From the IMG/VR virus record IMGVR_UViG_3300015262_000001, positions 1 through 64,000 of that record: 64,000 nt of DNA; one strand, given 5' to 3'. The position numbers and the translations under genes were made by a program. This DNA is from a virus. The notes under the pieces were generated by a model, which saw only the letters and a program-made list of their open reading frames with translations, searched no databases and was not told where the DNA came from. Of the stretch, positions 21,712-59,800 are shown in pieces; position 1 is the stretch's first letter, and every line of letters begins with the position of its first letter.

Positions 21712-24039
21712 TTAATTGAGCGAGCAGTTAGATTCAATAAGTTTGAAATCCTTTTCCTTATTGGCAAAGGCAATCCGTCGTTTCTGGAAACACTCCTGAT
21801 GTTTACCGATATCATTACAGAACGGGAAGATAAACATCGGGGTGATACGACCATCGAACTTACCACGTAGCTGACGCAAGCGACCGATCATCTGTTTGTT
21901 CCGTTGGGTCGAGAAGACCGTATGGAAACAGAACGTCCTGACAAGGCCAGGGATGTCCTTACCGGTACCGCAACTACCCGGTGTGGTGATAACGATCTCA
22001 TGCTCCAGATACTTCGTTGGTGTCTTCTTGTCCTTCGTTCCAAGGAAGGTACAGAAGTCCAGGTGTGGATACTTCGCCTGAAACATCGCCAACATCGTCT
22101 CACACATTTCAATACGCGAGAAGAAGAACAGAGCCTTAGTGCCTGGCTCTCTTATTGGCGGGATGTAATTGTAATCACCCGGCTTGCCGATACCGATGTA
22201 ATACTCCACAAACATCTTGTCGGCAATCTTGAAGTAGAACTCGGTCAAGACCGCACTACGCAGAATAGACGCTTCAAGCGCCATGTCATTGTAGCTGCCG
22301 AACTGTACCGTCTTCAGGAAGTACCTGCGCTGACACAAGTGATACATGTAAGCAACGATGTCGATGTAGTTCTCAGGTTCAGGTTCCTTAAGCCTGAGAC
22401 TGATCGGGAGCATCAGGTTGTACATCTTGTTCATGAACGGATCATCAGCTGTCAAGGTAGCCGACAGTGTGAGCAGTTTCTTGATGTTGCCATGGAACAA
22501 CGACAGACAGACTTCATGGAACGACTCATGCCCCTCATCCACAATACGGTAGCCCGGGTTGATCTGTTCAAAGATCTTGCTGAGCGGTACCGCTGTGGCG
22601 TCCTTACGGTTGTTACGCAAATACCCCGAGATCCTGGAGAACGGCACGATAACAATCTTGGGATTAAGCAGTCCCTTCTCGATGTTCTCCCCCAGTAATG
22701 GCAACGAGGCGTTTTCCCACACAACCACATCACCTGGTTTCATGATCAACGTTTTCTCGATGTCATTGATCCAGGTGGTAATGTAACGCGGTTGTACCGT
22801 AATGAGTACCCGCTTGCCAAGCTTGACGGCAGTGTAGAGACCCATGTAGGTGTTGTGGGTAACAATGTAGTCCTTGACCACGAAGCAGTGGCTCGGGTGT
22901 TCTACTGCGATGCAGGTGGTCTCGGTTGGATTGCTCTCAACGATTTGCACGATCTTCAAAGCCAGATCACGGTTCTCCGAGTTCCGTAGCTTATCCTGTT
23001 TCGTCTCATCGGTGAACAGAATCTCCGGAGTCCGATGGCGGAGGATAACCGAGTTCTTGAACTTCTTGAACTTGGCTTCCGCAATACCCCCAATACTTCG
23101 AACCAGGTCACGAACCATTTTGGCTGTAATACCGTATTCGGTTTGGAAGAGGATCGAACCGTCCGACTTTGGTTCACCGCCGTTATCCAATAACCCTCGC
23201 AGCAAAGCCATCCGTTGGGAATGAGAACCTTCCAGATACTTCTCACCCAGGATCCGATCGGTCTTACCAATCAGGTAGGGTTCAATGATATCCCCACGAT
23301 CAGGGTTGCGCTCACTGGCGGTTAGCGGGATGTACCAGGTCTTCTCACTGTCCACTAACTGCTGGGTGGTCAGTACCTGCCACTCGGTTTCACCTTCAGC
23401 CCGAACTTCCCATTGGTGGTCAGGGCACGCCACGATCGATCTACGATCCTCAAACATCAGATGGTAAGTCCGTGTCATCCCTTGAGGGAAAACGCCTGTA
23501 ACGTACGTGTGGGAGCCGTCAGGGGCCATCACAAGGTCATTAACCTTGATCTGTCCAATAGGGCGCCAACCGTGGATGGTTCTGACCGGCGTATCATTGG
23601 CTAGCGCTTTACCGCCACCCGTTGGAGCATTGTTGATCTTTACCGCGCCTTCAGCTAACTGATAGTCCAGCCACTCCTCCTGAGCGGGCAATGGAGTTGA
23701 CATCTCAGGCCGGAGTTGGAATTCGCAATCAGCGCCTTCTATCTCCGGTTCTGTTTCAATAGCAATCCGGGAAGCGTTGTAACCCCGGTATTGCGCAAAC
23801 TCAATGAACTCCTTCATTAAGCTTACGGGAATCCGATACTCAGTTTTGTCGTGATTAGACTGAGCAAACACGTGAGTCACTTTCCAGACCTGTTTATTGC
23901 TTCCAGGCACTGGAACCTTACCGACCTTATACAGGTGAGCGCGGCAGAAAGGAATAATAACCTTTACACAGAAATCGCCGTAATACCCAAAGATGCGCAG
24001 GTAGGTGTGACCCATGGATACAGTGGCGGAATGCCTCAT
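21712..24039 (-). CDS. SF2 DNA helicase (UvsW-like) interrupted by an intein
   Basis: 775 residues including a 252-residue intein. Walker A is APTGGGK (K144) continued by T397 after splicing; motif II DEGHE, motif III SATLT and motif VI MIGRLRQLRGKFDG place it in helicase superfamily 2, similar in layout to T4 UvsW. The N-terminal 110 residues form a separate substrate-binding region. Residue M1 (24039) is used; M9 is an alternative start. Spliced length is about 523 residues. It follows the RNAP beta'C gene, as phiKZ gp75 follows gp74. Likely roles are replication-fork remodelling, recombination or transcription-coupled unwinding. Confidence 0.85.
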   Translation of the reverse strand: MRHSATVSMGHTYLRIFGYYGDFCVKVIIPFCRAHLYKVGKVPVPGSNKQVWKVTHVFAQSNHDKTEYRIPVSLMKEFIEFAQYRGYNASRIAIETEPEIEGADCEFQLRPEMSTPLPAQEEWLDYQLAEGAVKINNAPTGGGKALANDTPVRTIHGWRPIGQIKVNDLVMAPDGSHTYVTGVFPQGMTRTYHLMFEDRRSIVACPDHQWEVRAEGETEWQVLTTQQLVDSEKTWYIPLTASERNPDRGDIIEPYLIGKTDRILGEKYLEGSHSQRMALLRGLLDNGGEPKSDGSILFQTEYGITAKMVRDLVRSIGGIAEAKFKKFKNSVILRHRTPEILFTDETKQDKLRNSENRDLALKIVQIVESNPTETTCIAVEHPSHCFVVKDYIVTHNTYMGLYTAVKLGKRVLITVQPRYITTWINDIEKTLIMKPGDVVVWENASLPLLGENIEKGLLNPKIVIVPFSRISGYLRNNRKDATAVPLSKIFEQINPGYRIVDEGHESFHEVCLSLFHGNIKKLLTLSATLTADDPFMNKMYNLMLPISLRLKEPEPENYIDIVAYMYHLCQRRYFLKTVQFGSYNDMALEASILRSAVLTEFYFKIADKMFVEYYIGIGKPGDYNYIPPIREPGTKALFFFSRIEMCETMLAMFQAKYPHLDFCTFLGTKDKKTPTKYLEHEIVITTPGSCGTGKDIPGLVRTFCFHTVFSTQRNKQMIGRLRQLRGKFDGRITPMFIFPFCNDIGKHQECFQKRRIAFANKEKDFKLIESNCSLN
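22852..23607 (-). other. Class 3-type intein in helicase Walker A
   Basis: Residues 145-396 of the helicase. The first residue is Ala, not Cys/Ser, so the classical first nucleophile is absent. Block B has CPDHQW (Trp210 at B:12), block F has TTCIAV (Cys376 at F:4) and block G is VTHN/T (Thr394 at G:5). That is the Trp-Cys-Thr triplet defining class 3 inteins, which use the block F Cys. A remnant LAGLIDADG-type region (QRMALLRGLLDNGG) lacks the usual acidic residue, so the homing nuclease is probably inactive. It splits GGGK from T. Confidence 0.85.
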
Positions 24040-24062
24040 ACCAAAAGCCTCAAAAACATTAA

Positions 24063-24097
24063 GGGGAGGACCGAAGTCCCCCCTAAGGAGGACTTCG
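24063..24097 (-). promoter_or_regulatory. Two mutually exclusive hairpins before the helicase gene
   Basis: On the minus strand, CGAAGTCCTCC can pair with GGGGGACTTCG (11 bp, TTAG loop, one G-U pair), or the second arm can instead fold as GGGGGGAC-TTCG-GTCC-T-CCCC with a UUCG tetraloop. Both lie between the RNAP beta'C stop (24100) and the helicase start (24039). The layout resembles an attenuator or a processing site that sets helicase expression. Confidence 0.5.
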
Positions 24098-24099
24098 AG

Positions 24100-26094
24100 T
24101 TATGACACCGCGTGTTGCAGGAAACATTCCAGCACACTTGATTGACGGTCTTTAACCGCAAAGGTTTTCGGAAGGTTCAGGATGTTCTGCTGCCGTTCAA
24201 AGATCGACATCGTACCCGAACCGCGGTTATCCACACACGTTACAAAGCTGGTGAAGTATTTATCACCAGGACCGGTTGCCAGCTTGTACGAATGCTCTGC
24301 TGGGTTCTTGGTCAATGCGCAAGCCAGGATCACCTCGACGTAGATCATGTTGATGCCTTTAGTTTCTGCATCGATCAACGTCCAGAATTCCGAGAGTACT
24401 TCGCCGAAGACTTTCGGAGTAACGACCTGTTTCTTCCACGCCGCGTTACGTTTGTTAAACGTAAGGAAGTTTTCCACCCGTGCCCGGTGTGCGTCCAAGT
24501 CCTCGCGAACATATGGCAACACGAACATTGGGTCAGCATGGTTCCATTGGGACAAGTCCACCGAAATGAACTTCTTGTCTTGCATGGTCCAGCCATGGTC
24601 CAGTATATACTGGAGGAATCCCATAGAAAAGCGGGCGCGGCGAGATGATACCGATGTCTGCGCAGGATGTTGTTGCGTGGTGGTACCGCCCACCATGATG
24701 TCTTCCACCTCATACTGGAAGGTGACTTCACCAAAGTAAGGCAACTTACTGAGTGCGATCTCGTCCATGATGTCCAAGGAACGCAAGTCAGACAAATCTT
24801 TCACAATGGTCGACTTAAGAATCAGTCGAGTACCTTCTTTACACAGGTCTTTCTCGAGGAAGATCTGATCACCGTTGGAGGTAATGATTTCTTTATCTCG
24901 ATAGTGGGGTACAAACTTCTTGCTGGTAGCGTTACGGATGAAGTGTTTGGTAGACAGCATTTTCTGACCCAATGGGTTACAGATCGTGGTACCTGCAAAC
25001 ATGCCGATGTTGGCATCTTTCTTCATCATCCGGTTGTACGGGATAGCCGACTTCATCATCCCATAACACACGCCACAGGGTGTACCGGTTATGCTGTTAC
25101 AGAAACCAACACTGCGCAGGTTGACAATGTCGCCCGCTTTGATCGTCTTCACGTTCTTAACGCTGATCAGATCAACTGTGTTGTCTTCCAAGACACGATA
25201 AGAACCCAGCAAGCTCTTGGCCATCTCAGTCGACGCAATGCGCAACGGCACAGTGTCAAGCGACCCACAGTCCTGCATATGGCCGATGGAATGGATGATC
25301 GCCGTGAACAAGTGAATCTTCCGGTGGAACCATTCCGAGTCTTTCAGTGCCCGGCCGTTACTGTTAAGCGCTTTACCAGCACCACGGTTATCGCCAATGG
25401 CGTCCGCCAGGTTGACAATACCATCAGCATACCGCGCCATGACAGCGTTTGGCATAATGGTGTTATCGAGGTCGAATACTGCACCACGAATGATCGCCGT
25501 TTGATACGCTTGGTTGATACTCACACCACCCGTACGTGCCAGCAAAGCTACCGTGTTGTAATCCAACGTTTCGGATGTCTTCAGGTAAACAGAGAACAGT
25601 TCCTCCCCTTCGTCGATCGTTACTTCTTTGTCGAGTACCTTGCGATGGATCTCGCGGATACCCGGATCTTCGATCAGGTCGTCTACCGATTCAGCCATGG
25701 CCGAGATAACCGACGTTTCACTCATGACCACGATCAAGTTATTAAGCTTGGTCTGCCACATGTGAATGGTCATCTTGATCACGTCCCATTCCACTGGATC
25801 ATGAATGTTGGGTCCAATCTCACCCATGATCCAGTTCATTGGAATAGCGAGCGTCTTGTTGTTATACACGACACTCTTGCCAGTTGGGATAACCTCCTTC
25901 ACCGAATACGGCACGGTGTTGTAGGCCCGGTGAATCATCATGCCCTGCCAAGTTAACAGCATGGCATAACTGTCGCTCAGTACCTTCTCTCCATGGTCAT
26001 CCGTGACCTCAACGGCCATACGGAAACCACGCCAACGCAATACCTGGTGTTCAGGCAGGTTAGCAAAATCCCGTAGGTTAATTTGCAAGGCCAT
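24100..26094 (-). CDS. Non-virion RNA polymerase beta' C-terminal subunit (phiKZ gp74-like)
   Basis: 664 residues. LARTGGVSINQAYQTAIIRG (from about residue 185) corresponds to the beta' SGARG...QLxGxRG region; the next 60 residues follow the beta' HGARKGLADTALRTADSGY region; C332, C340 and C343 with GVCYG mark the CxxCYG site; and NIGMFAGTTICNPLGQKML with STKHF (362-385) corresponds to the trigger-loop segment GEAVG...IGEPGTQLTMRTFH. Together with the gene at 26094 it matches the gp71-73/gp74 pair of phiKZ, part of the RNAP that transcribes later genes inside the phage nucleus. The start ATG overlaps the upstream stop by one base, with AAGGAGA upstream. Confidence 0.8.
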   Translation of the reverse strand: MALQINLRDFANLPEHQVLRWRGFRMAVEVTDDHGEKVLSDSYAMLLTWQGMMIHRAYNTVPYSVKEVIPTGKSVVYNNKTLAIPMNWIMGEIGPNIHDPVEWDVIKMTIHMWQTKLNNLIVVMSETSVISAMAESVDDLIEDPGIREIHRKVLDKEVTIDEGEELFSVYLKTSETLDYNTVALLARTGGVSINQAYQTAIIRGAVFDLDNTIMPNAVMARYADGIVNLADAIGDNRGAGKALNSNGRALKDSEWFHRKIHLFTAIIHSIGHMQDCGSLDTVPLRIASTEMAKSLLGSYRVLEDNTVDLISVKNVKTIKAGDIVNLRSVGFCNSITGTPCGVCYGMMKSAIPYNRMMKKDANIGMFAGTTICNPLGQKMLSTKHFIRNATSKKFVPHYRDKEIITSNGDQIFLEKDLCKEGTRLILKSTIVKDLSDLRSLDIMDEIALSKLPYFGEVTFQYEVEDIMVGGTTTQQHPAQTSVSSRRARFSMGFLQYILDHGWTMQDKKFISVDLSQWNHADPMFVLPYVREDLDAHRARVENFLTFNKRNAAWKKQVVTPKVFGEVLSEFWTLIDAETKGINMIYVEVILACALTKNPAEHSYKLATGPGDKYFTSFVTCVDNRGSGTMSIFERQQNILNLPKTFAVKDRQSSVLECFLQHAVS

Positions 26095-28265
26095 TACAAG
26101 GTCTCCTTAGCAGGTGCTTCATAATCCGAACGGTCAGTTGGCAGTTCACGACGCAGGGTATAGCCAGAGTCACTGAGCATGCTCTGCGACATTTGTACCG
26201 CCCGGTTCAACCCATACTCGTCTGGCTTGATGATCTGGTTGATGTTAAAGCCATCTTCCGCCCGTACCACACGCTGTGCCATCCGCGTACGGAGTTCAGG
26301 TGCATAGCCCATGGCCAGTTGCTTGACCGTTTCTTTTGCGCCCGCTTGACTGAGTGTAAGCCGTGCTTCAGTTTCACCCTTGTTACGGTTCCAGACCATC
26401 CGCAACCAACTGGAATACTTGTTGGCTTCGTTAAGTTTGGCTGGCATGCCGAATGGGTTAGACATTGGCAACGACTGAGCCGACATGTCCGTACCGAACT
26501 TGTCCAACAGCATGAAGTGCTGGTTGGTGATCAGTACCGGGTTAACAGACCGCACCATCTCACCGAGGGAATCCCGGAAGGTGATTTGTTCAGGCTTGTA
26601 GCTGTACACCTTACGCAGCGCTTTGATAATCTCAACGCCGTAGAGTTTGGTGTCGCTACGCACATGCACACTGATCTGCGTGGCTGCGATATCGTTGACG
26701 TACTCGACGATGTCCTCGCGGGTTACCATGGTCATCTGTACCAGCTCTGCGAACTCTGGGAATCCAGTCTCGTAGAACAGCATCAGTTTTTCCATTGCAC
26801 CGACGTAGTCACCTTCTTTTTGGCATTGCACCACTTCTTTGTGGATATTAATGTTAATAAAGTTGATCGACTGTTCCATCAGCATCGAGAAGATCTGCCG
26901 GCGGAATGCTGGTGTGTTGTTAACCACAACGTCACACACAGTACCGTCATCATAACGCGGAGCATCTTCGTCTGGAATAATCCGAACGATTACACCCTTG
27001 TCGCCGTTCATACCCGACATCTTGAACTTGGCACGACCAGAGACGATCTCACGCAACCGGATAGTAATACTCCAGTCTTTAACACGTACACGCTTAACAG
27101 CACGGAACAGCGGGTTAGGCTTACCGGTGTTAGCATTAATGGTGTAGTTGCCCTTGGCGAAGCGGATGAACCGATTCAAAGGACGAGTCATAGCGATTGG
27201 ATTACCACGGTTAGCCGTAACTCGGCCACTGTGCCAACGAATCACTTCGTTCCACATGTCATTCTGGCGACGCTCATAGCGTTCCAGCATATTCGTGTGG
27301 GCCTGTTTGATGTATTCAGTCGAACGGTTATTCGACTTGTTCTTCATGCGCTCGCTGATCACTTCAACCGACATGACCTCGGAATCCACCGGCGCCCGGA
27401 ACAGGATGTCGTGAGTCTCGTCTGGAATGGTCAAAGCTTTCTTGGTCAGAGACACCAAAGCGTTTGCAGAGACACGACGACGGAAACCCATCACGATGCC
27501 GTCTTCGCGAATGCGCTCGCCGCTTTGTGGGAATGGGCTATCTCTGTACAGAGTCAGCGGCACCCACTCGTCTTCGTTCCAACCGTGAGCACGGATGTGT
27601 TCGAACATGCAGCGCAGTTTGTCGCGCGCACAGCTCTCGGTAATACCGATACCATCCTCTTCGGTATAGTGGAAGGAAGCCGGTGCAACCTTAAGGTCCA
27701 TACCAAACATCCACTCGCCATCTTTACTGATGCGTGGGGATTTGGCAAAGATCGTACCTTTAGGGAACACGGCGCCTTTCTTTAACTTACGCATGACATT
27801 CATGTCATAAACGTATTCAAAGCCTACGTAGGAGTTTTGTACGTTATACCGTGGAAACTCCATGATATCGTACTTACCCTTCTCATCGTTCTTGAACACG
27901 ACGTAGACCGGAGCCCATTTGTCAGTGTCACCTTCGCCGCCATTGATAGCCTGAGCGTAGAAGATTTCCTCAATAACCATGTTTGATGGAGCTTCAACAC
28001 AGCGAGCGCGTTTGGCATATTGATACTCGTTGCCAGATTTAAGTTTGCGCTCACTTGCACCCGAAGTCGCTACCGCCTTCGGGATCATGTTACCCACCAT
28101 GTAAATACGGGTAGGAGACGATACCTGTGGGAACACTACCAGGTTTGCACACACGCCCATTACCGCAGGGTGCAACTGGTTCTCGGCCAAATAAGCCCAC
28201 TTCTTAAATCGCCCCAGCCCGACCTGAGGGATCTCGACAGGAGAATCATCTTTTTTATCACTCAC
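26094..28265 (-). CDS. Non-virion RNA polymerase beta C-terminal subunit (phiKZ gp71-73-like)
   Basis: 723 residues from a GTG start with AGGAG upstream. KFKMSGMNGDKGVIVRIIP with EDAPRYDDGT (from about residue 413) matches the beta segment GRHGNKGVVSKILPVEDMP that lines the active centre, and EDGIGITESCARD (about 203-215) matches the beta (N)YEDA..ISE region. This is the C-terminal part of beta; the N-terminal part (gp123-like) is not in this window. It is expressed ahead of beta'C in one operon. A copy of the early-promoter-like element lies 48-72 bases upstream of the start. Confidence 0.8.
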   Translation of the reverse strand: MSDKKDDSPVEIPQVGLGRFKKWAYLAENQLHPAVMGVCANLVVFPQVSSPTRIYMVGNMIPKAVATSGASERKLKSGNEYQYAKRARCVEAPSNMVIEEIFYAQAINGGEGDTDKWAPVYVVFKNDEKGKYDIMEFPRYNVQNSYVGFEYVYDMNVMRKLKKGAVFPKGTIFAKSPRISKDGEWMFGMDLKVAPASFHYTEEDGIGITESCARDKLRCMFEHIRAHGWNEDEWVPLTLYRDSPFPQSGERIREDGIVMGFRRRVSANALVSLTKKALTIPDETHDILFRAPVDSEVMSVEVISERMKNKSNNRSTEYIKQAHTNMLERYERRQNDMWNEVIRWHSGRVTANRGNPIAMTRPLNRFIRFAKGNYTINANTGKPNPLFRAVKRVRVKDWSITIRLREIVSGRAKFKMSGMNGDKGVIVRIIPDEDAPRYDDGTVCDVVVNNTPAFRRQIFSMLMEQSINFININIHKEVVQCQKEGDYVGAMEKLMLFYETGFPEFAELVQMTMVTREDIVEYVNDIAATQISVHVRSDTKLYGVEIIKALRKVYSYKPEQITFRDSLGEMVRSVNPVLITNQHFMLLDKFGTDMSAQSLPMSNPFGMPAKLNEANKYSSWLRMVWNRNKGETEARLTLSQAGAKETVKQLAMGYAPELRTRMAQRVVRAEDGFNINQIIKPDEYGLNRAVQMSQSMLSDSGYTLRRELPTDRSDYEAPAKETL

Positions 28266-28312
28266 AATCTTTCTCCTATTATCTTAAACTTGATACAACC
28301 TATTCCAAAAGG

Positions 28313-28337
28313 ATGATATAGGTTTAAGTTTTATTAG
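28313..28337 (-). promoter_or_regulatory. Early-promoter-like element upstream of RNAP beta C gene
   Basis: Most divergent of five copies of the shared element. On the minus strand it reads ACTTAAACCTATATCAT, against the consensus ATTTCAAGCCTACATTAC. It ends 48 bases before the GTG at 28265 and is positioned like the others. Confidence 0.4.
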
Positions 28338-28403
28338 GGTTGCCATATCGCTTATAGCAATAAAGGATGGGGCCGCCAGTTAACAATTAGCTTGGAGAGG
28401 ACA

Positions 28404-28733
28404 ATGCCAATTCCAAACAGTGAATCAGACAACGGTAAAGACTTCTATTACACCGATGCCTTCAAGATCTTGGTGCGTTCTGAAAAAGAAATACTGTTGC
28501 GCGGTTCTCAGATGATACCCATCGTAGACCGAGCAATGCTCTACGCGTTCCGTACCGACTTCTATCGGGTGATGCGAGTTATGAACATCCCCGCTCACCT
28601 GCGTTGGGCAACTGCCTTTATCAATGACGTGAATGACCCCAATCAGGATGTCTCTGACTTCCAGTCGTTTCAGATGATCAACGAGAGCGATTTGAACAAA
28701 GCCATATCCCGCAGCAATACAGTTAAAGGCTAA
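28404..28733 (+). CDS. Unknown small protein
   Basis: 109 residues from ATG 28404 with GGAGAGG directly upstream; a TTG at 28392 in the same frame overlaps that site and is not used. Mixed composition with several Met and Phe, no motif. It is a lone plus-strand gene between two minus-strand RNAP-cluster blocks and is closed by a perfect palindromic terminator. Its upstream 100 bases overlap the divergent promoter-like element of the RNAP beta C gene. Confidence 0.65.
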   Translation: MPIPNSESDNGKDFYYTDAFKILVRSEKEILLRGSQMIPIVDRAMLYAFRTDFYRVMRVMNIPAHLRWATAFINDVNDPNQDVSDFQSFQMINESDLNKAISRSNTVKG

Positions 28734-28745
28734 AAAAGAAAGGTA

Positions 28746-28775
28746 TAGCAGGCTGGGGAATTCCCCAGCCTGCTA
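28746..28775. terminator. Perfect palindromic terminator
   Basis: 30-base perfect inverted repeat (left arm TAGCAGGCTGGGGAA) with no unpaired loop in the DNA, lying between convergent genes ending at 28733 and 28789. AAAAAAG precedes it, giving a T-rich tail in the minus direction. Confidence 0.85.
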
Positions 28776-28788
28776 GCCTTATGGCTGC

Positions 28789-30258
28789 TTAGTAAGTAGC
28801 CATCGAGTAATCAGCTACGCCGCCTGGTGCGCCTTGGCTCGTGCTAGGACGCATCATTTGTTGCAGCTGTTGTGGCATTACAGTCATGCCGTTTGGCAGC
28901 AGGATCATGCCGTTGGCCAATTGCTGACCGCCCATCATGTTCATACCGCCGCCCATGCCGCCCATGCCACCCATCATGTTCATACCACCCATGTTGTTAA
29001 GCATGCTGCTTTCGACACGACGCAGAAGGTTGCCGTGACGAGTGCACTGGTAGATGACCTGGTTGCCATTGTTGTTCATGGCGTAGTGGTTGACGTGGCC
29101 GGCCATGTAATCAATCTCGGTCTTGATGTAGTTATCGCCGTATTCCATTGCTGGAACAGTGGTGTCGAAACTACCGTCATTACCGCCAACAACGTTAGGC
29201 TGGTTATTACCGCCTTTATTGTTGTTATTACTGTTATTGTTGTTACCCTGGTTGTTGCCCTGGTTACGGTTACCACTACCGCTTACCGAGAACAGGTTGG
29301 TGTTGTTGCGCTGGTTACTGGTCTGCTGGACTTCTTCGTCCTGGGTGTTATGACTATTATAGTCAAGGGTTGGCACCTGACGATAGATTTCCGGCAGCTC
29401 GTCCAGATGCTCGTACCAGTTGGTGTCGATTGGGTAGACACCGGCCTTGTCGAAATCAGCACGGAAGGTGTTCTGGATACGGTTCAGCTGTTCAGCCAGC
29501 TCGTAGTAGCAACCCAGGTAAGCACACAGACGCGCTGCGACTTGACTGGTCGACTCGATCTCGAGGTCGTCAGGGGTTTCCACAATTGGCAGGATCTGCT
29601 GGAACAGGTGAGCTGCCAACTTCAATGCACCGATCGATACACTGAAACCATTCAGTTCAACGGTCTGGTTGTCAGACTGACCTTCCGAACGAGCCAGGCG
29701 CTTGATGATCTCGTTGTAGAACGGGAACACTGGCTTGGCTTTGTAGTAGACCTTCTCACCGGTCTTGCCACGGCCACCGCCTTTGGTGACCTTGATGTGA
29801 ATGAAACGGTTGTCGACGCCGTTGTCGTTGACTTCAACCTGCATTTGCTGAAAGAGTTTCTTCAGCTCGTCACGGTAGGTGCGCTTGGCAGCCTTCAGTG
29901 GCTCGAGCATGTCGAGGATGTTCTGGCGCCAGGCTTGCTTGGCGGTCTTGCCCGCCACACCAAAGATGATCGGCACGTATTCAGTGAACGTGGTCAGGAG
30001 CTTGAGTGTAGACAGGCGACGAATCACCTTGAACACTTCGGTTTCCTTCGAGGTCACGTTTTCACATGCCGGGTGGAAGAACACCTTGTCGATGCAGTTG
30101 CCGTCGAGGACTTCAGACAAAGGCAGATACATGTCCATGTCATCGATGCGGACCGGGATTTCATCACCATTGATAGACACCACAATGCGGGAGTCATCTT
30201 TGATTACGGAACCCCATGACATCAACATGGCTTTGTACAACTTGTTCAATTCATTCAT
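28789..30258 (-). CDS. Unknown RNAP-cluster protein with Asn-rich and Gly/Met-rich tail (phiKZ gp70 position)
   Basis: 489 residues. The N-terminal 290 residues look folded. A low-complexity stretch follows (about 315-350), dominated by Asn with Gly/Gln, then a short folded part, then a tail of GGMGGMGGGMNMMGG type. Such tails often mediate weak multivalent contacts or RNA binding. The gene sits between gp69-like and RNAP beta C genes, the position of phiKZ gp70. No enzyme motif is visible. It may be a nucleus- or RNAP-associated protein, inferred from position only. Start ATG has AAGGAC upstream. Confidence 0.7.
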   Translation of the reverse strand: MNELNKLYKAMLMSWGSVIKDDSRIVVSINGDEIPVRIDDMDMYLPLSEVLDGNCIDKVFFHPACENVTSKETEVFKVIRRLSTLKLLTTFTEYVPIIFGVAGKTAKQAWRQNILDMLEPLKAAKRTYRDELKKLFQQMQVEVNDNGVDNRFIHIKVTKGGGRGKTGEKVYYKAKPVFPFYNEIIKRLARSEGQSDNQTVELNGFSVSIGALKLAAHLFQQILPIVETPDDLEIESTSQVAARLCAYLGCYYELAEQLNRIQNTFRADFDKAGVYPIDTNWYEHLDELPEIYRQVPTLDYNSHNTQDEEVQQTSNQRNNTNLFSVSGSGNRNQGNNQGNNNNSNNNNKGGNNQPNVVGGNDGSFDTTVPAMEYGDNYIKTEIDYMAGHVNHYAMNNNGNQVIYQCTRHGNLLRRVESSMLNNMGGMNMMGGMGGMGGGMNMMGGQQLANGMILLPNGMTVMPQQLQQMMRPSTSQGAPGGVADYSMATY

Positions 30259-30267
30259 GGCTGGTCC

Positions 30268-50825: not shown

Positions 50826-50834
50826 GAGAGTACT

Positions 50835-50990
50835 TTGGCAGGTGGAGCTTTTCCCAACGATGTATTGTCGGGACAGCCAGTCGTTAATGGGGGACAACTG
50901 ACTGTTGCGGGTAGTGGACTCCAAACTATTCCCACGGGTACGCCAGGGCTAACTATCTTCAAGCAGGAGCAAACTCACGAGTTCACATAG
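50835..50990 (+). CDS. Candidate small protein, 51 residues
   Basis: Open frame from TTG 50835, with GGGAG 6 bases upstream, to TAG 50988-50990. The translation (MAGGAFPNDVLSGQPVVNGG onward, then LTVAGSGLQTIPTG) has natural-looking composition: Gly/Thr/Val-rich, low Cys/His, beta-like, similar in flavour to small phage surface or tail proteins. It lies between a hairpin and the convergent Ntn-hydrolase gene. The non-ATG start and lack of a clear promoter keep confidence low. Confidence 0.4.
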   Translation: MAGGAFPNDVLSGQPVVNGGQLTVAGSGLQTIPTGTPGLTIFKQEQTHEFT

Positions 50991-50998
50991 TATTAAAA

Positions 50999-51607
50999 CT
51001 ATGCGACCTTGGCGTCGGCTTCAGCGATAGCTTCTTCGGTAACCGCCTTTGCAAGCTTGTCCATGGTTTCCTCGGTGGTTTCGAAGGTAGGACGCTTCGA
51101 AGGAGTTTCTGGCGCCGGTGGTACCTCGAAGATCTGGAGATTACCCCCGCACTCGATACACAGGTTGATCGCCGCCTTCACACCTGCACGGGCTGACTTA
51201 CCGATGGACATCACCGACAACGCGAATTGCGCACCGTCCCCAACGGCGAGGAATCCAGTTGCTGGGATGATGTTCAGTACGGTGTGCTTGTCGCTCTTGG
51301 TGGACTCAGACGGTATGACCTGGTAAGCCACGCCGTTTTCACCGATCACGATTGCGTCGAAGGTGTTATCGAACGACGACGCATCTGAGGTGTTATCGAT
51401 CCCGCTCTGCAACAACTTGCGGAACTGCGGATAAACCACAGGAGTGCCGATCACAGCAAATGCAATTGCCTTCACCCCGCAGATCTCCCAGTACTCCCCT
51501 TCGTCTGGTGTGTAGATCTTGCGGAACTCACTTGGACTGATCTGGCCGTCAGTGTGGATGGCCGAGTCGGTGACCATAAGTTTACCGTCGAATGCTGCTA
51601 CGGACAT
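50999..51607 (-). CDS. HslV/proteasome-like Ntn-hydrolase paralog, Ser version
   Basis: 202 residues. After Met the sequence SVAAFDGKLMVTDSAI with FRKIY aligns with its neighbour and with HslV: residue 1 of the mature form would be Ser, with the equivalents of D17 (TDS) and K33 (RKI) present. The G-S-G loop of the family is GDG here. Paired conserved blocks are EGEYW and MSIGKSA. A C-terminal extension of about 35 acidic/Ala residues is absent in the paralog. It may be a protease with a Ser nucleophile, a regulatory subunit, or inactive. Co-transcribed, 15 bases after the Thr paralog. Confidence 0.65.
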   Translation of the reverse strand: MSVAAFDGKLMVTDSAIHTDGQISPSEFRKIYTPDEGEYWEICGVKAIAFAVIGTPVVYPQFRKLLQSGIDNTSDASSFDNTFDAIVIGENGVAYQVIPSESTKSDKHTVLNIIPATGFLAVGDGAQFALSVMSIGKSARAGVKAAINLCIECGGNLQIFEVPPAPETPSKRPTFETTEETMDKLAKAVTEEAIAEADAKVA

Positions 51608-51622
51608 GATTTGTTTTCCTGA

Positions 51623-52168
51623 TCAGGCGGGTGTCGCTTCGGCGACGACCACTGGCCGCGTGGATTTGATGGCTGGTTTTGGTGGCAGATCCCAGATTTG
51701 CAGATCACCGCCCGAGTACTTGTCCAGTCGGATGGCTGCTCGTACTGCTGCCTCAGCAGATTTGCCGATAGACAGAACCCCCAAGACAAACGGCTGACCC
51801 GAACCTGCTGCTGCTGGTGGGAACAGGGGGAGCAAGTCCGTGTGAAGCGGCCGACCCTGACGCTTGTTGACCTGCCAGCGATAGCATTGCCCGTCCTCGG
51901 TGATCAGCAATGCGGCGAAACCAATTTCGTCGATGTCTTCGACTTTCGTTTTGTGAGTAACCCCGATACGGAGTTTCTCTTTGACCACTTCGATCGATTT
52001 ACCATCTCCCGAGATACCGGCGGCCAATACACGGTGGCCCTGTACATCCCAGTATTCCCCTTCCTCGGGTTCGTGTATCTTCCTGAGACCACCCGGTTGA
52101 ATAATCATACCGGCAGTGGCTTGTGAATCGCTGACCAGTTTCTTTCCGTCCCACGCTACGCTCGTCAT
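51623..52168 (-). CDS. HslV/proteasome-like Ntn-hydrolase, Thr version
   Basis: 181 residues. The start MTSVAWDGKKLVSDSQAT resembles the HslV/proteasome beta N-terminus: Thr next to Met as the N-terminal nucleophile, Asp (SDS) and Lys (LRKI) in place of D17 and K33, and a GSG loop (AAGSGQPFVLG). HslV normally forms a ring peptidase driven by HslU; phages carry stand-alone relatives of unknown substrate. It is first of a two-gene operon with GAGGAGG before the ATG and an early-promoter-like element 65-90 bases upstream. It could degrade host or phage proteins early in infection. Confidence 0.7.
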   Translation of the reverse strand: MTSVAWDGKKLVSDSQATAGMIIQPGGLRKIHEPEEGEYWDVQGHRVLAAGISGDGKSIEVVKEKLRIGVTHKTKVEDIDEIGFAALLITEDGQCYRWQVNKRQGRPLHTDLLPLFPPAAAGSGQPFVLGVLSIGKSAEAAVRAAIRLDKYSGGDLQIWDLPPKPAIKSTRPVVVAEATPA

Positions 52169-52232
52169 GTTTGCCTCCTCATGTTTCTTTCAAATCGGTT
52201 TTCTAGAATATGGTTTCCTAGGTGACAAAGTA

Positions 52233-52258
52233 GTAATTTAGGTTTGAAATACTCCATC
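52233..52258 (-). promoter_or_regulatory. Early-promoter-like element upstream of Ntn-hydrolase pair
   Basis: Minus-strand GGAGTATTTCAAACC followed by TAAATTAC, a good match to the shared element except for A instead of C in the TACATTAC core. It ends 65 bases before the ATG at 52168. Confidence 0.55.
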
Positions 52259-52791
52259 CCTCTGTATACCTCGTGCGTGTGTACGCGGGCGTTTCTTTGC
52301 TTTTAAAAGCTTTAAAAGAGCAATAAAGAATAAATATATATAAATATATATTAGGTTCTTTAGCGCACGGAGCGCGTGTGCGCGAGGTAAACAGAAGGGA
52401 AAGAATTTCCTTTGAATTTAGCCAATTGACAAAACAAAAAACCTACCAGAAATTTCCGAAGGAAACTAAAAACAAGAAAATACTCCTTTACCCCCGGCCG
52501 CGGCGCTGGATCTCAAATAGAATATATAGGCGAGATGATATTTAAATGCCGGTCTCTGAGTGAGGGTTTATATCCACCTCCATCGTCCCTCTCAAGATCG
52601 ATCAGAAGCCACCTAGGAAACGTTCCTAGAGGTTTTCAGCATACGAGGTACCCTACGGTACTAGTTTTGGAGATGAGGTTCTCCAAAGCGATTTTAGAAG
52701 GTCTTCACTTTTAGACTGGTCGCCCCAAAAGGGATGCTATGACCCCTTCTTAACCCAATTTATTTACACCGATTCCTAGGAGTGCTAGATT
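52259..52791. other. Structured AT-rich intergenic region
   Basis: About 530 bases without a supported gene. An AT-rich core (TTTTAAAAGCTTTAAAAG, then tandem AAATATATAT units, 52299-52352) is flanked by inverted GC-rich arms that share TACCTCG (near 52267 and 52382 reversed). Towards the plus-strand gene at 52792 come several small hairpins: CTAGGAA/TTCCTAG near 52611-52631, GGTACC/GGTACT near 52648-52662 and TTTGGAGA/TCTCCAAA near 52666-52689. It may combine a promoter, a long structured leader for the structural operon and possibly a replication start site. Confidence 0.5.
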
Positions 52792-53637
52792 ATGAACGCG
52801 GTGGATTACGCCATCAATCGGGTCACCAATTGTGACATCGACGACTACCTGCTTAAACTTGCTTTCGAAGCCCCCAACGGTAACTTCGCTGGTAACTGGT
52901 ACAACATGGTTAACCACACGACCGTGGAACAGGGTATCCGTGAGAAAGTGATTCACCGTACTGTACTGCCAGCGTGTAATGCCAACGGTGGTAAGACCGA
53001 GCTTATCGACTTGAGCGGTGCTCGTATCCGTGACCTGGGTAACGCTTGTATCGAAGTGAACGTACCGGACATCGTGACCGGTGGTCGCAAGATCATTTCG
53101 GTAACGGAGATCTATCTGGGTTCGATGACTTCGTCGACTGGTATGTTGGGGATGAGTACCAATACCAACGACATGTGTGGTCAGGGCAGTGTCGGGGACA
53201 TGACTGAAGCGCTGATCGACAGCCTCAGTTCCAACCGTCAGATGCCGGTGACTTACAACAACATCCACATGACTGGTAACAACTGCTTCGTGATCTTTGG
53301 TTTGAACTCGGGTACTTACTCGATGTCGGCCAAGATGATCCTGGAGTTCGATGAAGGTCTGAGCAGTATTTCCACACGCCAGCATGAACACTTTGCTCAC
53401 CTGGTGGAACTGGCTGTTAAGGCGTACATCTACCGGACCTGCCGTCGTCCTACTCAGGAAGCGATTATCCGCAGCGGTATTTCTTTGAGCGACATCAAGG
53501 ATGACATCATGGAATACCGTGATGCCTGGAAAGACTACCACGAATACCTCACCACGGAATGGACCAAGCGGATGGCCTACAGTGACCGTCAGCGTGTGAC
53601 TGATGCCGTGCGCCGTTCTGTCCCAAGGAGATACTGA
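52792..53637 (+). CDS. Putative virion structural protein
   Basis: 281 residues from ATG 52792 with AGGAG 9 bases upstream. Mixed alpha/beta, Gly/Ser/Thr/Asn-rich centre (MLGMSTNTNDMCGQGSVG), Arg-rich C-terminus. No enzyme motif. Its stop overlaps the start of the 460-residue gene. phiKZ has a similar pair of structural genes (gp26/gp27) near its terminase gp25; position here, close to the terminase, fits that loosely. Confidence 0.7.
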   Translation: MNAVDYAINRVTNCDIDDYLLKLAFEAPNGNFAGNWYNMVNHTTVEQGIREKVIHRTVLPACNANGGKTELIDLSGARIRDLGNACIEVNVPDIVTGGRKIISVTEIYLGSMTSSTGMLGMSTNTNDMCGQGSVGDMTEALIDSLSSNRQMPVTYNNIHMTGNNCFVIFGLNSGTYSMSAKMILEFDEGLSSISTRQHEHFAHLVELAVKAYIYRTCRRPTQEAIIRSGISLSDIKDDIMEYRDAWKDYHEYLTTEWTKRMAYSDRQRVTDAVRRSVPRRY

Positions 53638-55019
53638 TGACCTCGTTTATTGAACCCTCGATCTTCAGTTTGTTTGAAGGTACGGAAGAACACTCGATCC
53701 TGGCTAAGGGTGGGTTGTACCTGGAGCCGCTACACCCAAGTGAGATCCAGTCGGTAACAGGTGCTGAAGCTTTGCTGTCAGGTATCAACTTCGACAGTAA
53801 CCATGCCATCCTGGAAATCTGCAACAAGTTCGGTGACTTCCTGGTTATCGACGAGAAGTGGGCCAAGATACTGCGTCGTTACGTCTACTCGTTCGTAACC
53901 CGAAGTGTGGGCGTGGTGAGTCATATGGAGTTCTTCGGTTCTCCGTATCTCGGTTTGCACAAGATCACTTTCACCACGGCTGACCGTAACCAGTGGTTCT
54001 CTGAGATCTTCGACGTTGATGAAGAGGAACTCAAAGAAAACCTGCACGCAGCCAAAGCAGTGAACAAGGACTGGAGTGTTGTGGGTGATACCTTCAACCT
54101 GACCATTCCCTACCTGTTGTATCGGGTAAACCGCTCTAGCCTGAGCAAGGATACCAAGCACCAGGCGATGATCGATATCCTGTCGATGTATCACTACAAG
54201 TGTTTGACGTCGATCATTCACAACGACTATCCGTTTATGGCACGGAAAGAAGTGGTGCTGGAAACCTATAACCGTTTGAGTCTGAAATATGATATCAAGC
54301 GTTACGGTAGCTGGCGGGCTTTGATCGAGGCTCGGGCTGAGTTCATCATCAACCCGAAGACTGGTATCCACTACGATGCTTTCAGCAAAATGGATGACGA
54401 CAAGAAAATCGTCTACATGGTCGGGGATATCCAGAACCGGTTGCGTCGAGCGATCAACGACATCAACAAGGTGTTCCACGACGTCAAGAACAAAACCGAC
54501 ATCGTTCGGATTGACGGGGCAAAGGTAAACCTGGGCGATGAGTTGGCACTGAAGACGCAGACCAAGGAGATCACCCAGTTTGTTCTCTACCTTGATCGTA
54601 TCCTCACCGAGGAGACTTCGTTCTACAAGGACGAGTTGGTCAAGTATGCAGCTGATGCATTGGAAGGCTGTCCCCGCGACAAGCTGGCGTACGTCATCCA
54701 GCAGTTCCCGACGATGTACAACAACCCGAAGAAGCCGGAATACAAACAGTTTGCTGATGCGGTACTCCAGCACATGTTTGAATACCTGCACACCAATGGT
54801 ATTAAGAAAACCAACGTGTATGACGTCTTGATCAAGATGCGCGGTGCCTACGGGGCTCCTCGTAGCAAGAACGATACCGTCAAGGTGATCCGAGCCCTGG
54901 GTGATCAAATCATCAAAGAGCGAACAGGGGTCATAACCCAGCAAACCGTGCAACTGGTACGTACCGCACTGTGTCTGTACATCGTGTTGCGTATCCTGAG
55001 CAAGGACTATTTTGAGTAA
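53637..55019 (+). CDS. Putative virion structural protein
   Basis: 460 residues from an ATG that overlaps the previous stop (CTGATGA), with AAGGAGA upstream. N-terminal third mixed with aromatic residues, the remainder strongly helical and basic. No motif recognised. Coupled translation with the 281-residue protein suggests the two form one virion or assembly component. Confidence 0.7.
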   Translation: MTSFIEPSIFSLFEGTEEHSILAKGGLYLEPLHPSEIQSVTGAEALLSGINFDSNHAILEICNKFGDFLVIDEKWAKILRRYVYSFVTRSVGVVSHMEFFGSPYLGLHKITFTTADRNQWFSEIFDVDEEELKENLHAAKAVNKDWSVVGDTFNLTIPYLLYRVNRSSLSKDTKHQAMIDILSMYHYKCLTSIIHNDYPFMARKEVVLETYNRLSLKYDIKRYGSWRALIEARAEFIINPKTGIHYDAFSKMDDDKKIVYMVGDIQNRLRRAINDINKVFHDVKNKTDIVRIDGAKVNLGDELALKTQTKEITQFVLYLDRILTEETSFYKDELVKYAADALEGCPRDKLAYVIQQFPTMYNNPKKPEYKQFADAVLQHMFEYLHTNGIKKTNVYDVLIKMRGAYGAPRSKNDTVKVIRALGDQIIKERTGVITQQTVQLVRTALCLYIVLRILSKDYFE

Positions 55020-55028
55020 GGAGGTTGA

Positions 55029-55595
55029 ATGCATTACTTTAACGTGGATGGTCAAACAGAGCTGACGGTACTCTCCGCAATCGAACAGATCAAAGACCGA
55101 CTCACCCTGCAAGGCAAGAAGGTTGCCATCTGTACGGACGTTGGTGTTGGGTCTAACGCGCTTAGCTGTGACCGTGAACTATGGGTGACGCTTACTCACC
55201 CCGACAAGAGCAACGAGGAAAAGATCGTGGCTCTTCTAGAGGCCCGTTCAAAGTTCTACAAGGCAACCTTACTACCCTGCCTGGATGAGTGCGAAATCGT
55301 ACTGGTCAAAGGCGGTATGATTCATGACATGCGCTGGATGGACTACAAGGTAGATTCCTTTCAGACTGTCTTGAAGGAAAACCTGGAGATGTTACAATCT
55401 CTGGGCGGGATTGCTTACCCAGCAGGTGTCATCCTTGTGGAAGGGAAGGATGAGACAGATCCCATTGAAGGCTACAAAGAGATGTTTGAAACACGTGCCC
55501 AGCGGATGGGCGACGCCATGTCTCGTTTCAAATATGTTAACTACGAGTTTGGTAACGGCGGCCGCTCTGACATTGGGATGTTACTTAACCCTTAA
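55029..55595 (+). CDS. Thymidylate-kinase-like protein lacking the P-loop
   Basis: 188 residues with AAGGAGG before the ATG. The layout follows thymidylate kinase: LQGKKVAICTDVGVGSNA in place of the G..V..TREPGGT strand and loop, LLEARSKFYKATLLPCLDE in place of LLFAADRxxHxxxxIxPAL, then EIVLVKGG where the kinase has the DRY/DRF motif, and a strand ILVEGKDETDP in place of LD.DPE. The usual N-terminal GxxGxGKS is absent and DR is replaced by KG, so catalysis is doubtful. It may be a binding protein or a structural reuse of the fold. The match is by pattern only. Confidence 0.45.
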   Translation: MHYFNVDGQTELTVLSAIEQIKDRLTLQGKKVAICTDVGVGSNALSCDRELWVTLTHPDKSNEEKIVALLEARSKFYKATLLPCLDECEIVLVKGGMIHDMRWMDYKVDSFQTVLKENLEMLQSLGGIAYPAGVILVEGKDETDPIEGYKEMFETRAQRMGDAMSRFKYVNYEFGNGGRSDIGMLLNP

Positions 55596-55612
55596 CACAC
55601 CGGAGACCAGTC

Positions 55613-56044
55613 ATGGATCTTCAACACTTCGTAGGAACGAAAATCGTTAAATCGAAACCGATGACAAAATCGGTATATAACGGTTACAGAGGCTGGGACA
55701 TGCCGGCTGATGAAGATGGCGCTGAAGAAGGCTATCTGGTCGAGTATTTGGACGGCGGTAAACCAAATCACCCTGACCACGCCGGTTACATTTCCTGGGC
55801 GCCCAAGGAACAGCATGAGAATGCTTACCTGAACATGGGCAACATGGGTAGCTATACACCCGAGCAACAAAAGCTTTTCGCGGAGAAAGTGCAGACACAG
55901 CACCGTATTGCAAGACTGCGCGAAGAGATCAATAGCGTTGACCCGCACTTGGTAACCGAGTGGGAAATTCAGCTCATGGTAACTCAGTTATCCTGTCTGG
56001 AAACTCTACTCAATGTGGTAACCGAACGGACGGAGTGGTTTTAA
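55613..56044 (+). CDS. Small conserved phage protein (GW-P-GYLVEY-SW-P type)
   Basis: 143 residues with GGAGACC before the ATG. Residues 12-80 (SKPMTKSVYNGYRGWDMPAD, then GYLVEYLDGG, then GYISWAPKE) match a short domain of unknown function I have seen in many unrelated tailed phages and prophages. The C-terminal 55 residues are a helical extension found in other phage small proteins. Function is not established. It is last in the plus-strand operon before a strong terminator. Confidence 0.65.
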   Translation: MDLQHFVGTKIVKSKPMTKSVYNGYRGWDMPADEDGAEEGYLVEYLDGGKPNHPDHAGYISWAPKEQHENAYLNMGNMGSYTPEQQKLFAEKVQTQHRIARLREEINSVDPHLVTEWEIQLMVTQLSCLETLLNVVTERTEWF

Positions 56045-56063
56045 TTTTATGTAACTCCTCCCC

Positions 56064-56103
56064 TAACTACTCCCCTAGCCCGTCAAGGCTAGGGGAGTAG
56101 TTA
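56064..56103. terminator. Bidirectional hairpin terminator
   Basis: 17-bp perfect stem (TAACTACTCCCCTAGCC) with a CGTCAA loop between convergent genes ending at 56044 and 56116. Confidence 0.9.
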
Positions 56104-56115
56104 TGTTTGGTTGAC

Positions 56116-56796
56116 TTATACGACGCCGTGGGTTACAGACAGTTCAGAGATCACCGACACCGATCCGTCATCTACCGGAGTATCGTCGGTGTAGTCGACC
56201 TGGTTGTACACACCACCATGGAATTGAAGAACCTGACCTTGCCAGGAGGTATCCAGTTTCCATGCCATCTTGATCGACGGTACGCCATTGCACAGAACGT
56301 TGATCGACACCGACCCATTGGAAGTTACACCAATGCTGAGCTTAAACGTAGCGCCCAGAGGCACGTCGTTATGGATAACGGTATTGACGACGTCTGGTTT
56401 ATCGAAACTGCTACGGAACCCGACGGTGATTTGGCCTTTGTTCCAGAACACCTTCAGTGGCGGAGTAGTGGCATTTTTGACATGGATCTGCCCTACCACT
56501 ACTTTACCGGCCCAGTTGACTTTGCCAAGAGTAATCTCTTGACGACTCCAATGCCGAGCAGCGCTAGACAAGGACCAGTATTCCGGCTCTTTCCATTCGC
56601 AACGAGTACGTTTGGTGCTTTTGCTGGACGCCCCTTTTGTTGGAGCAGTGAACATTACAGAACCGCTGTCCCATTGGGTGATTACCGACGGGCATTGCAC
56701 CAAGGCAAGATCACCCATGAGTTCCAACGCCAAAGGGTTGGTATCCGAAACAGGCAGCGGCGTAGCAATGAGGAACTTAGTGATATCAACTGACAT
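56116..56796 (-). CDS. PL7-like polysaccharide (alginate) lyase
   Basis: 226 residues from ATG 56796 with CTGGAGA upstream, no signal peptide. Three signature segments of the PL7/alginate lyase 2 fold appear in order: RCEWK (65-69, for R-T/S-E-L-R), GQIHVKNATTPPLKVF (Q103, H105) and HGGVYNQ (Y197, Q199). In PL7 the Arg, Gln, His and Tyr at these places form the active site cutting alginate by beta-elimination; all four are present here, though RTELR is modified. The likely role is degrading exopolysaccharide around the host, as a virion depolymerase or released at lysis. It lies directly behind the terminase gene. Confidence 0.7.
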   Translation of the reverse strand: MSVDITKFLIATPLPVSDTNPLALELMGDLALVQCPSVITQWDSGSVMFTAPTKGASSKSTKRTRCEWKEPEYWSLSSAARHWSRQEITLGKVNWAGKVVVGQIHVKNATTPPLKVFWNKGQITVGFRSSFDKPDVVNTVIHNDVPLGATFKLSIGVTSNGSVSINVLCNGVPSIKMAWKLDTSWQGQVLQFHGGVYNQVDYTDDTPVDDGSVSVISELSVTHGVV

Positions 56797-56816
56797 GATG
56801 TCTCCAGGAAGTTGGT

Positions 56817-59800
56817 TTATGCGGCACGCTTACGTTCCCGCAGCATGCGTTTAGCCCGTTCGAGTTTAGCTTCTTCGATCAGACTGTCTACGGTGAGGAG
56901 TTTAGCCGTTTCAACTGGGAGCAATCTGCTGAGCTTGTTGATCTCAGCTTCCAGCCTCATGGCGAGGATATTGTCGTTGGTGTTCAACAACTCTTCCGTC
57001 AACCCATTCACGCGTTTCTTGATGTTGTCCAAGAACGATACAACACTTGGATCCACTTCAGGAGCGTTCTTGTGTTTACCGGCATCCAGTAGGTTACGAG
57101 TTTCCGTTAACGCAATCCCGGTAGGAATCCCGTACATCGGCTTGTTCATACCCAGCTTGATAAACCAGTACGTTAACAACCAGGCAATAACCAAGTCATC
57201 GTGCTGTTTGCTATCGTGGTCGATTCGATCGCCCCGAGTCTTGAGGTTGATCAGCTCATCTGCAAGCCTATCGTAGTGCAGACCATACCCGGTGTTACCC
57301 ACAGCCTCCTGAATCAAGCCGTACAGAACCTGACGAGACGTTTGTGTCGTCACGAACCCGAAGTACTGCTTGTATTTCAGGTAGAAGCTTTTACTGCGAT
57401 GGGCAAACTTGGTATGCTGTACCGCCTCGTACTCCTTCGCATGGTTAACAGGATCCTGGAAGACCGTGTTGTAGATGCGAGTGAATGGATCCATCCCTTT
57501 AGCTGGTAGCATGACCAACAGGTTATCGATCATGTGGTGTGCGTAGTTACGTTCAATCACCAACAGACTGTTCTCGAAGGTAGACAACATGTCTACGATA
57601 ATGCCCGTCACGTCGTCCAGGAACGCCAACTGATAACGACCCACCCCAATCACCTTACCGGTTCGCATGCTGCGGATAATCAGCGTACAGGCATCCTTGT
57701 TGATAGCCGACGAGGTATCCACCCCAATGAGGAAGAAGTCATTGTAACTCTTCTTCGCCATCTCCAGCAGTTCTTGCTGCGTGACAAAGAAGTCTATAAA
57801 CAGACCACTGTCACGATACTCCTTACTCCAAACCTTATCCCGCTTAACGTTGTTGATCGCTTCACGAGTGATGTCATCGAACACACGGTTCTCACCGTCT
57901 TCAACCCACATCAGAAGCAAGTCGATTTTGGCTTTAGCCAAACTGAGGTTCAAGCTGTCGATGGTTTCCTGTACCCAGGACTTGTCTTTACCCAGCTGCA
58001 AGAAGTTATACACCAGAGCCACAGATGGAGAAGTGGTCTTCTTCGGAGATGCTTTCAACAAGCGCATCTTCAGGTGACTTTCACTGTACGAGTCAAAGAA
58101 CTTCTCACGCCACTCAGTCGACGTCATCAGTTTCTCAAACATGAACGCGCCACTTGGGTGCAGGGTCGTGTTTGGTGTCGTGATGTAACTGATCCCGTAA
58201 GGAATACCACTATCGCGACAAATCTCCATCTCTGTCAAAGCAGAAGGAGAGCATCCGTTGATGATCGCCTCGATCCAGTTGATGTAACCAGGCTCGTCGT
58301 AGTTCGTGGTACCTACCGTGAGACCCCGTCCAAGGTCACCTGCGGCGTCTTCACCCATCTGGGGTACCGAGATGGTCAGGGTGTTAACGTGCTCCTCCCC
58401 AAACGCTTTATACGTCAGGTAGTTACCCGCATCCTTGTCCTTCCAGGTGGGGTTAACCAGGTACTTCGGCAGACAGGTTCTGATTTTCTTGATGGCATCG
58501 ATGAACTGAGCCCGGTTATCTGACTTCAACGTTACCAGGTGAGACTTGTAGCCTCGCCCCATGATGTACGTCAGCCAGAAAGCAATAACCTGTACCGATA
58601 CTGTGTTGTGAGTTACCAGGAAGTCATCGGTAACGTAGAGGTGTTCCTCGTTATCGACCTCGATACAGGTACAAGGGGCTTCACCGTGATACTCAATGCG
58701 TTCCACAAACAAACGGTTATCGAAAACGAACTCGTCCTCAACATGCTTGTATTTAAACAACGCCATCGAATGCGGCAAGGTTACAGTGATCTTGCTACCA
58801 GCCTTGGAAGCCGTACCGCCCAAACTCCGCGCCAGGTATTGAACATGACCGCCTACGAGTCTGCTAGTGGTGCTGTAGACCACACCCTCCTCACCGACTA
58901 TCCCTTGGTCCAGAAACGCTTGCAGTACAGCCAGCCGATCTTCCAGAGCCCCTTCCAGGTAGTTAGACGGCAGACCCAGGTCTGGATCGAAGGTAATCTT
59001 GACATTCTCGTCAGTCGAGTGGATCTCACGACGATTACCCTTCTTCACCAGCTCTAAACTTTCAGGCAGGTTATTCTCAATCCAGGCGTCAGCCGCTTCG
59101 GAGACCTTCTTGATCAGGATGAAGCCACCAATACGCTGACCGCCAATTAGTGTCCCCATCACATAAGGGTCAATCGCCAAGTTCTTGGCAACGCCCTTCT
59201 CCGCTTCAATCAGCGGGAACTCAAGCTTTACACCATCCTTGAGTTTGGTGATCATCTCGGCGGTGGTGTAGTCGTCCCAGATTGGATCATCGTTAACTAC
59301 ACGACTGTGGTCTGCTAAAGTCCAGAGGTGTTCAGGTCCAGCAGTCACATGACGACCATCACTGGCGTAAACACGGTACAAGCGTTTGATACCCTGAGCG
59401 TGGATACCGATGACTGTCGATGGGTTACCATAACGGTCAATGACTTGATCACCAGCTTGCAGGTCGCCAATTCGTACCCAGGTCCCATCTGCTTTACGCA
59501 CCTTGTCATTATCGTCCTGGTACTTGCCCTGCTGACGAGGCATGATCATGTACTGGGTGATGTGGTTCAGGTAGTTCCAGATGAAACTGACGTTACCGCG
59601 ATTCGCCAAGAACTGGCGGTCAGCACGCAGTTTACAAACCTCACGAAGGAAGTACCAGAAGTTGGTCTCCGATTCGTGCATGATCATGACCTTCTGTTCG
59701 TTGGTCAGATTCTCGTCGTAAGGGTCTACACCTACCAAGGCCGGATTGTTCAGTTGCAGTAGGAAGTAGTAGTTCTTGATACCCTGCTGCCGGAAGATCT

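Follow-up and report, generated by a model that had tools for sequence, protein, structure and literature searches.

Sequence evidence for class 3 inteins at the Walker A motif of a helicase and a terminase in a giant phage

Two interrupted ATPase genes at the locus

We analyzed 64,000 nucleotides (here referred to as "the window") of the virus record IMGVR_UViG_3300015262_000001, which is 228,597 bases (228.6 kb) long. Two genes in the window, encoding a DNA helicase and the large terminase subunit (TerL), each carry an insert between the Lys and the Thr of Walker A (Table 1). The terminase with its insert is 64% identical to TerL of Pseudomonas phage EL over 98% of its length, and the record also holds split phage RNA polymerase genes; judged by these sequences, it is a giant phage related to EL. 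The preliminary description of this DNA had presented the inserts as a pair of inteins. Both are real, and the genome carries a third class 3 intein outside the window, in an SNF2-type helicase (record positions 111071-111874; locus L012, 4072-4875), with junctions GSGK/AMPLN...VTHN/T (slashes mark splice junctions throughout) and a dead endonuclease. Four close relatives likewise carry three such inteins each.

Table 1. Features of the window that bear on the inteins
Feature	Positions	Strand	Basis
Helicase gene; SF2 (UvsW-like) DNA helicase, 775 aa, host of the first intein	21712-24039	-	ORF; PHROG 16 DNA helicase, E 4e-35
Helicase intein; class 3, 252 aa, at K/T of Walker A (PTGGGK/T)	22852-23607	-	Junctions, triplet, structure model
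LAGLIDADG endonuclease remnant of the helicase intein; motif 1 deleted, motif 2 LLDNGG	22966-23292	-	Sequence
RNA polymerase beta' subunit gene; intein-free here, EL orthologue has a class 3 intein	24100-26094	-	PHROG 3015, E 2e-191; aligned to EL gp39
Empty GK/A site in RNA polymerase beta', matching the EL GK/S insertion site	25369-25374	-	Sequence and alignments
Large terminase (TerL) gene, 1094 aa, host of the second intein	56817-60101	-	ORF; PHROG 2 terminase, E 4e-40
Terminase intein; class 3, 306 aa, at K/T of Walker A (RQQGK/T)	58605-59522	-	Junctions, triplet, structure model
LAGLIDADG endonuclease remnant of the terminase intein; motifs LIGGQ, LDQ-GIV	58716-59177	-	Sequence

Assignment to class 3

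Both inserts are in frame, and their removal restores an intein-free homologue. The predicted spliced terminase aligns without gaps through GK/T with the terminases of phages OBP (49.3% identity) and VP4B (52.7%), as does the predicted spliced helicase with RisingSun gp45 (45.8%); all three are intein-free, and failure to align in this way through GKT is what the preliminary description had named as a refutation. The junctions read NAPTGGGK/ALAND...IVTHN/TYMG in the helicase and MPRQQGK/YQDDN...LVTHN/TVSV in the terminase. Neither intein has a Cys, Ser, or Thr nucleophile at position 1 (Ala1 and Tyr1, respectively). The class 3 triplet of Trp (B:12), Cys (F:4), and Thr (G:5) is present in both, as W66, C232, and T250 in the helicase intein and W67, C286, and T304 in the terminase intein, together with the block B His (H64 and H65), a VTHN/T end (H251-N252 and H305-N306), and a +1 Thr.

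Structure models agree with this assignment. AlphaFold models of the helicase and terminase inteins had mean pLDDT values of 95.5 and 93.8; Foldseek matched the former to PI-SceI and the latter to PI-SceI/TliVMA, and both to the class 3 DnaB inteins 6BS8 and 6RIX. Both sequences also matched class 3 DnaB inteins by phmmer (helicase intein, E 1.5e-7; terminase intein, E 1.7e-6), so that the nearest solved relatives and the fold of both are class 3/Hint. The Pfam Intein_splicing profile (PF14890) matched nowhere in the 228,597-base record, and Pfam gave weak Hom_end_hint scores and nothing stronger; because of these weak or empty results, our intein searches relied on profiles built for this analysis. 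Taken together, sequence and modeled fold confirm both inserts as class 3 inteins at the exact K/T junction, as had been proposed from the letters alone. The proposal that their LAGLIDADG regions are worn out also holds: the catalytic Asp is gone from the motifs of both window inteins and of the SNF2 intein, with both catalytic Asp residues lost in the terminase intein and that of motif 2 lost in the helicase intein.

Class 3 chemistry begins with attack by Cys F:4 and proceeds through two branched intermediates to Asn cyclization (PMC3196547, PMC7664689). By analogy, we infer that the block F cysteine (C232 or C286) would attack the peptide bond that follows the lysine of Walker A, that the chain would transfer to the +1 threonine, and that the Asn would then cyclize as the exteins join and GKT is restored. 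The precursors are expected to be without ATPase activity, since their Walker A motif is split.

The GK/T position across the family

To place the two inteins, we drew on scans of viral contigs and phages, from which 97 distinct inteins were aligned; the W-C-T triplet is present in 97 of 97. Walker A inteins were the starting point of this survey, which may over-represent the Walker A site; an unselected count found GK near the junction in 95 of 101 complete distinct inteins, and the chance expectation from 30-residue stretches of these proteins is 16%. The +1 residue is Thr in 93 of the 101, Ser in 7, and Cys in 1 (Thr or Ser in 100/101). The host proteins are highly diverse, and many are P-loop proteins. 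Within the family as sampled from Walker A seeds, GK/T is by sequence the rule for the insertion position. We rejected Tyr1 of the terminase intein, which the preliminary description had singled out as unusual, as a special feature: ten residues (Y, A, L, M, P, E, Q, G, F, or N) occur at position 1 of terminase-site inteins, and a non-nucleophile there, Tyr included, is normal for the class. The second open reading frame of locus L065 holds a related intein with +1 Cys (ITHN/CGKTM), placed just upstream of GKT rather than inside it. Used as a single-protein query, the EL RNA polymerase intein matched two loci and no more. The record of phage vB_PQ1 seems to be full of broken genes and was little used.

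Descent of the window inteins

In a maximum likelihood tree of 57 rows, each intein of the window genome falls in a clade of inteins from the same gene (support 100/100 for terminase, 100/97 for helicase, and 100/100 for SNF2). Recent copying of one window intein to the other gene, by cutting of the GK-T coding sequence that the genes share, would account for the common insertion point and has precedent in same-genome transfer in two cousins, Shewanella phage FishSpeaker and Raoultella phage VB_ZK_P1 (below). However, the two inteins are only 28.5% identical, they sit in separate same-gene clades, and forcing them together is rejected by the approximately unbiased (AU) test (p-AU 5.8e-9), results by which we ruled out this candidate; moreover, their empty sites share 8 of 24 central bases, versus 15 to 17 in the sister-intein pairs of the cousins. 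A recent copy is thus very improbable, and for the window genes themselves the suggestion that the pair arose by transfer through a shared GK-T target is not supported as a recent event. The AU test also rejects one clade of all three inteins of the genome (p 8e-37). An ancient common source is not rejected for the helicase and terminase clades (p-AU 0.155) or for the helicase and SNF2 clades (0.39). The EL helicase intein lies outside the helicase clade of the window intein, although the AU test does not reject common descent (p-AU 0.13).

Several lines of evidence point to inheritance with the host gene. Extein-only scans found the site occupied in 19/19 terminases, 12/12 SNF2 helicases, 14/19 helicases, and 1/17 copies of the RNA polymerase subunit. 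Intein and extein distances are correlated (Mantel, 0.94 for terminase, 0.91 for SNF2, and 0.67 for helicase). The catalytic Asp of the endonuclease is lost in all EL-type terminase, helicase, and SNF2 inteins. All splicing residues are kept in every EL-like relative, and with dS near saturation in several comparisons, dN/dS is 0.03 to 0.12 in the splicing domains of the window inteins, much like the 0.05 to 0.11 of the exteins, and 0.02 to 0.35 in the endonuclease remnants. This combination of full or high occupancy, distance correlation, low dN/dS, and dead endonucleases argues for vertical inheritance of immobile inteins that still splice, and on this sequence evidence we consider it very probable that the window inteins are of this kind. 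With their endonucleases dead, they would no longer home but descend with the terminase and helicase of the EL-like lineage; their ability to splice would be maintained, since a Walker A left unspliced, or damaged by an imprecise deletion, would ruin an essential ATPase. The loss of endonuclease motifs would also agree with inserts so degenerate that they no longer splice and are retained in proteins that work or fail with them, but the retention of splicing residues, the low dN/dS of the splicing domains, and the splitting of the terminase Walker A by the insertion leave that reading extremely improbable.

The preliminary description had further suggested that splicing could time replication and packaging, which is possible. 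An intein acting as a posttranslational switch on the helicase and the packaging motor, perhaps through redox-sensitive splicing, would fit the full occupancy of the terminase and SNF2 sites and the low dN/dS despite dead endonucleases. A class 3 Walker A intein of mycobacterial DnaB is redox sensitive, and oxidation pauses it (PMC6195587). In the window clades, a further Cys close to the active site is conserved, as block B Cys61 in 7/7 helicase-clade inteins and, in 13/18 terminase-clade inteins, within a CxC that includes the catalytic Cys; from its position, this Cys could form a redox pair. Nevertheless, the need to splice at all would equally lead to purifying selection and vertical retention, 5/18 terminase-clade inteins lack CxC, and the Elvirus strain GXNNE2 has an intact helicase gene without the intein, which is dispensable there. 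We therefore regard a switch as unlikely, and vertical inheritance under the need to splice as the preferred reading.

Spread between genes in relatives with intact endonucleases

Where endonucleases are intact, the tree looks different. In FishSpeaker, the helicase intein is sister to that of SNF2 (100/99; 65.5% identical), and in VB_ZK_P1 the same holds for the inteins of the helicase and a BCS1-like AAA protein (98/97; 62.3% identical; L099, 3933-5024, and L210, in the open reading frame 2310-4637); all four retain LAGLIDADG motifs. The two helicase inteins of these phages share only 52.1% identity; the AU test rejects a tree that groups them (p-AU 0.0055), and a single clade of all helicase inteins is rejected as well. 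Among helicase-site inteins with live endonucleases, the distance is 0.54 between inteins versus 0.71 between exteins.

The same clade (98/96) includes an intein of EL in gp039, the RNA polymerase beta' subunit (locus L002, 5013-6110), with intact LAGLIDADG motifs. It is inserted at AAGK/S, confirmed against the intein-free RisingSun sequence GAGK/SLITNGKALK, although this subunit is not a P-loop ATPase. The orthologues in the window phage, FishSpeaker, and VB_ZK_P1 have Ala at +1 and are all empty; judging from the sequence, an intein at the GK/A site of the window would be without a +1 nucleophile. Just upstream of the EL RNA polymerase genes lies gp037 (L002, 612-1754), annotated as a transposase and TnpB/OrfB-like in appearance.

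Across the RNA polymerase and helicase genes, strain GXNNE2 is ~98% identical to EL (L221 versus L002), and it has precise empty sites where EL carries its RNA polymerase intein (1,098 bp) and its helicase intein (744 bp). Identity in the 150-base bins that contain the EL insertions (95.3% and 94.7%) ranks among the lowest. The difference could stem from gain in EL or from loss in GXNNE2. Collectively, these comparisons support spread from gene to gene through GK-T/S in relatives with intact endonucleases, and to this extent the transfer proposed in the preliminary description stands, in FishSpeaker, VB_ZK_P1, and the EL RNA polymerase. The shared GK/T of the window pair would then be a habit of the family, in which active members move from gene to gene and from phage to phage at GK-T/S codons, and not the mark of a recent event in this pair.

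DNA target or protein constraint

Across the central 24 bases, the empty sites of helicase and SNF2 in FishSpeaker share 17 and those of helicase and BCS1 in VB_ZK_P1 share 15, whereas helicase and terminase pairs, the window pair included, share 6 to 12, hardly more than the GK-T codons contribute. These counts fit a family that moves more easily between sites like those of helicase and SNF2, with the terminase lineage isolated, although the numbers are small. In the overall comparison, sites were no more alike within genomes than between them (11.2 versus 11.1 of 24 bases).

Clustering at GK/T could instead reflect a constraint at the protein level, namely where splicing works, combined with retention, rather than a DNA target shared by genes. 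Terminase and helicase sites are both occupied while having little DNA in common, and the sole occupied RNA polymerase site has +1 Ser whereas the orthologues with +1 Ala are empty. On the other hand, EL has an intein at GK/S of a protein that is not an ATPase, sister inteins occupy sites with more DNA in common, and strains ~98% identical differ in intein presence, which implies active gain or loss. We consider this alternative a serious one, if somewhat short of probable. More tentatively still, and with a probability well below even, phiKZ-type class 3 inteins may form an intragenomic mobile family in which live endonucleases recognize a degenerate P-loop-like DNA site and copy inteins between unrelated genes, even into the non-ATPase RNA polymerase beta', which resembles a P-loop only at GK-S. 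Live members might also mobilize dead siblings in trans, and dead ones would then reach fixation in the packaging motor and the helicases, where they may serve as switches operated by splicing.

Relation to known inteins

Published work already covers inteins in P-loop proteins and terminases, the mechanism of class 3 splicing, and exchange between DnaB and TerL (PMC5050341, PMC3196547), and the window pair itself is ordinary for class 3 inteins and of a known kind. The closest system is phage EL (NC_007623), with four inteins, in TerL (gp011), helicase (gp040), SNF2 helicase (gp166), and RNA polymerase beta' (gp039). The first three have dead endonucleases and occupy GK/T positions identical to those in the window phage; the fourth, with intact LAGLIDADG at GK/S, is absent there. 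The mycobacterial DnaB inteins DnaBi1 (6BS8; PMC6195587) and MchDnaB1 (6RIX; PMC7664689) share the P-loop position, Ala1, the W-C-T triplet, and the Hint fold with the window inteins, but they are mini-inteins without an endonuclease remnant and have +1 Ser. Mycobacteriophage TerL inteins (PMC5050341) lie in the terminase ATPase domain, as in the window, and TerL1-a is between the Walker A Lys and Thr; unlike those of the window, they come from a different group of phages and another family of terminases, and for several of them the endonuclease is active and splicing has been demonstrated. Transfer of class 3 inteins between DnaB and TerL has been proposed in these mycobacteriophages (PMC5050341).

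A literature search found no paper discussing the EL inteins, and the EL-type multi-intein state, same-genome sister inteins, and the GK/S insertion in RNA polymerase beta' seem less documented in searchable papers. These relatives constitute a natural experiment, with ~98% identical phages that do or do not carry two inteins, sister inteins within one genome, and a GK-S insertion outside ATPases, which could separate DNA target from protein constraint as the cause of intein clustering in P-loops.

Intein sequence also misleads annotation, with cases at 21712-24039 in the window and at loci L097 (3441-6119), L103 (2246-5644), and L221 (4501-6039). It causes helicases to be named "terminase large subunit", and the intein stretch of the window helicase draws terminase PHROG matches. 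Terminases, in turn, are misnamed "DarB-like antirestriction" or "helicase" through their inteins, and GXNNE2 genes are labeled "intein-containing" although their sites are empty.
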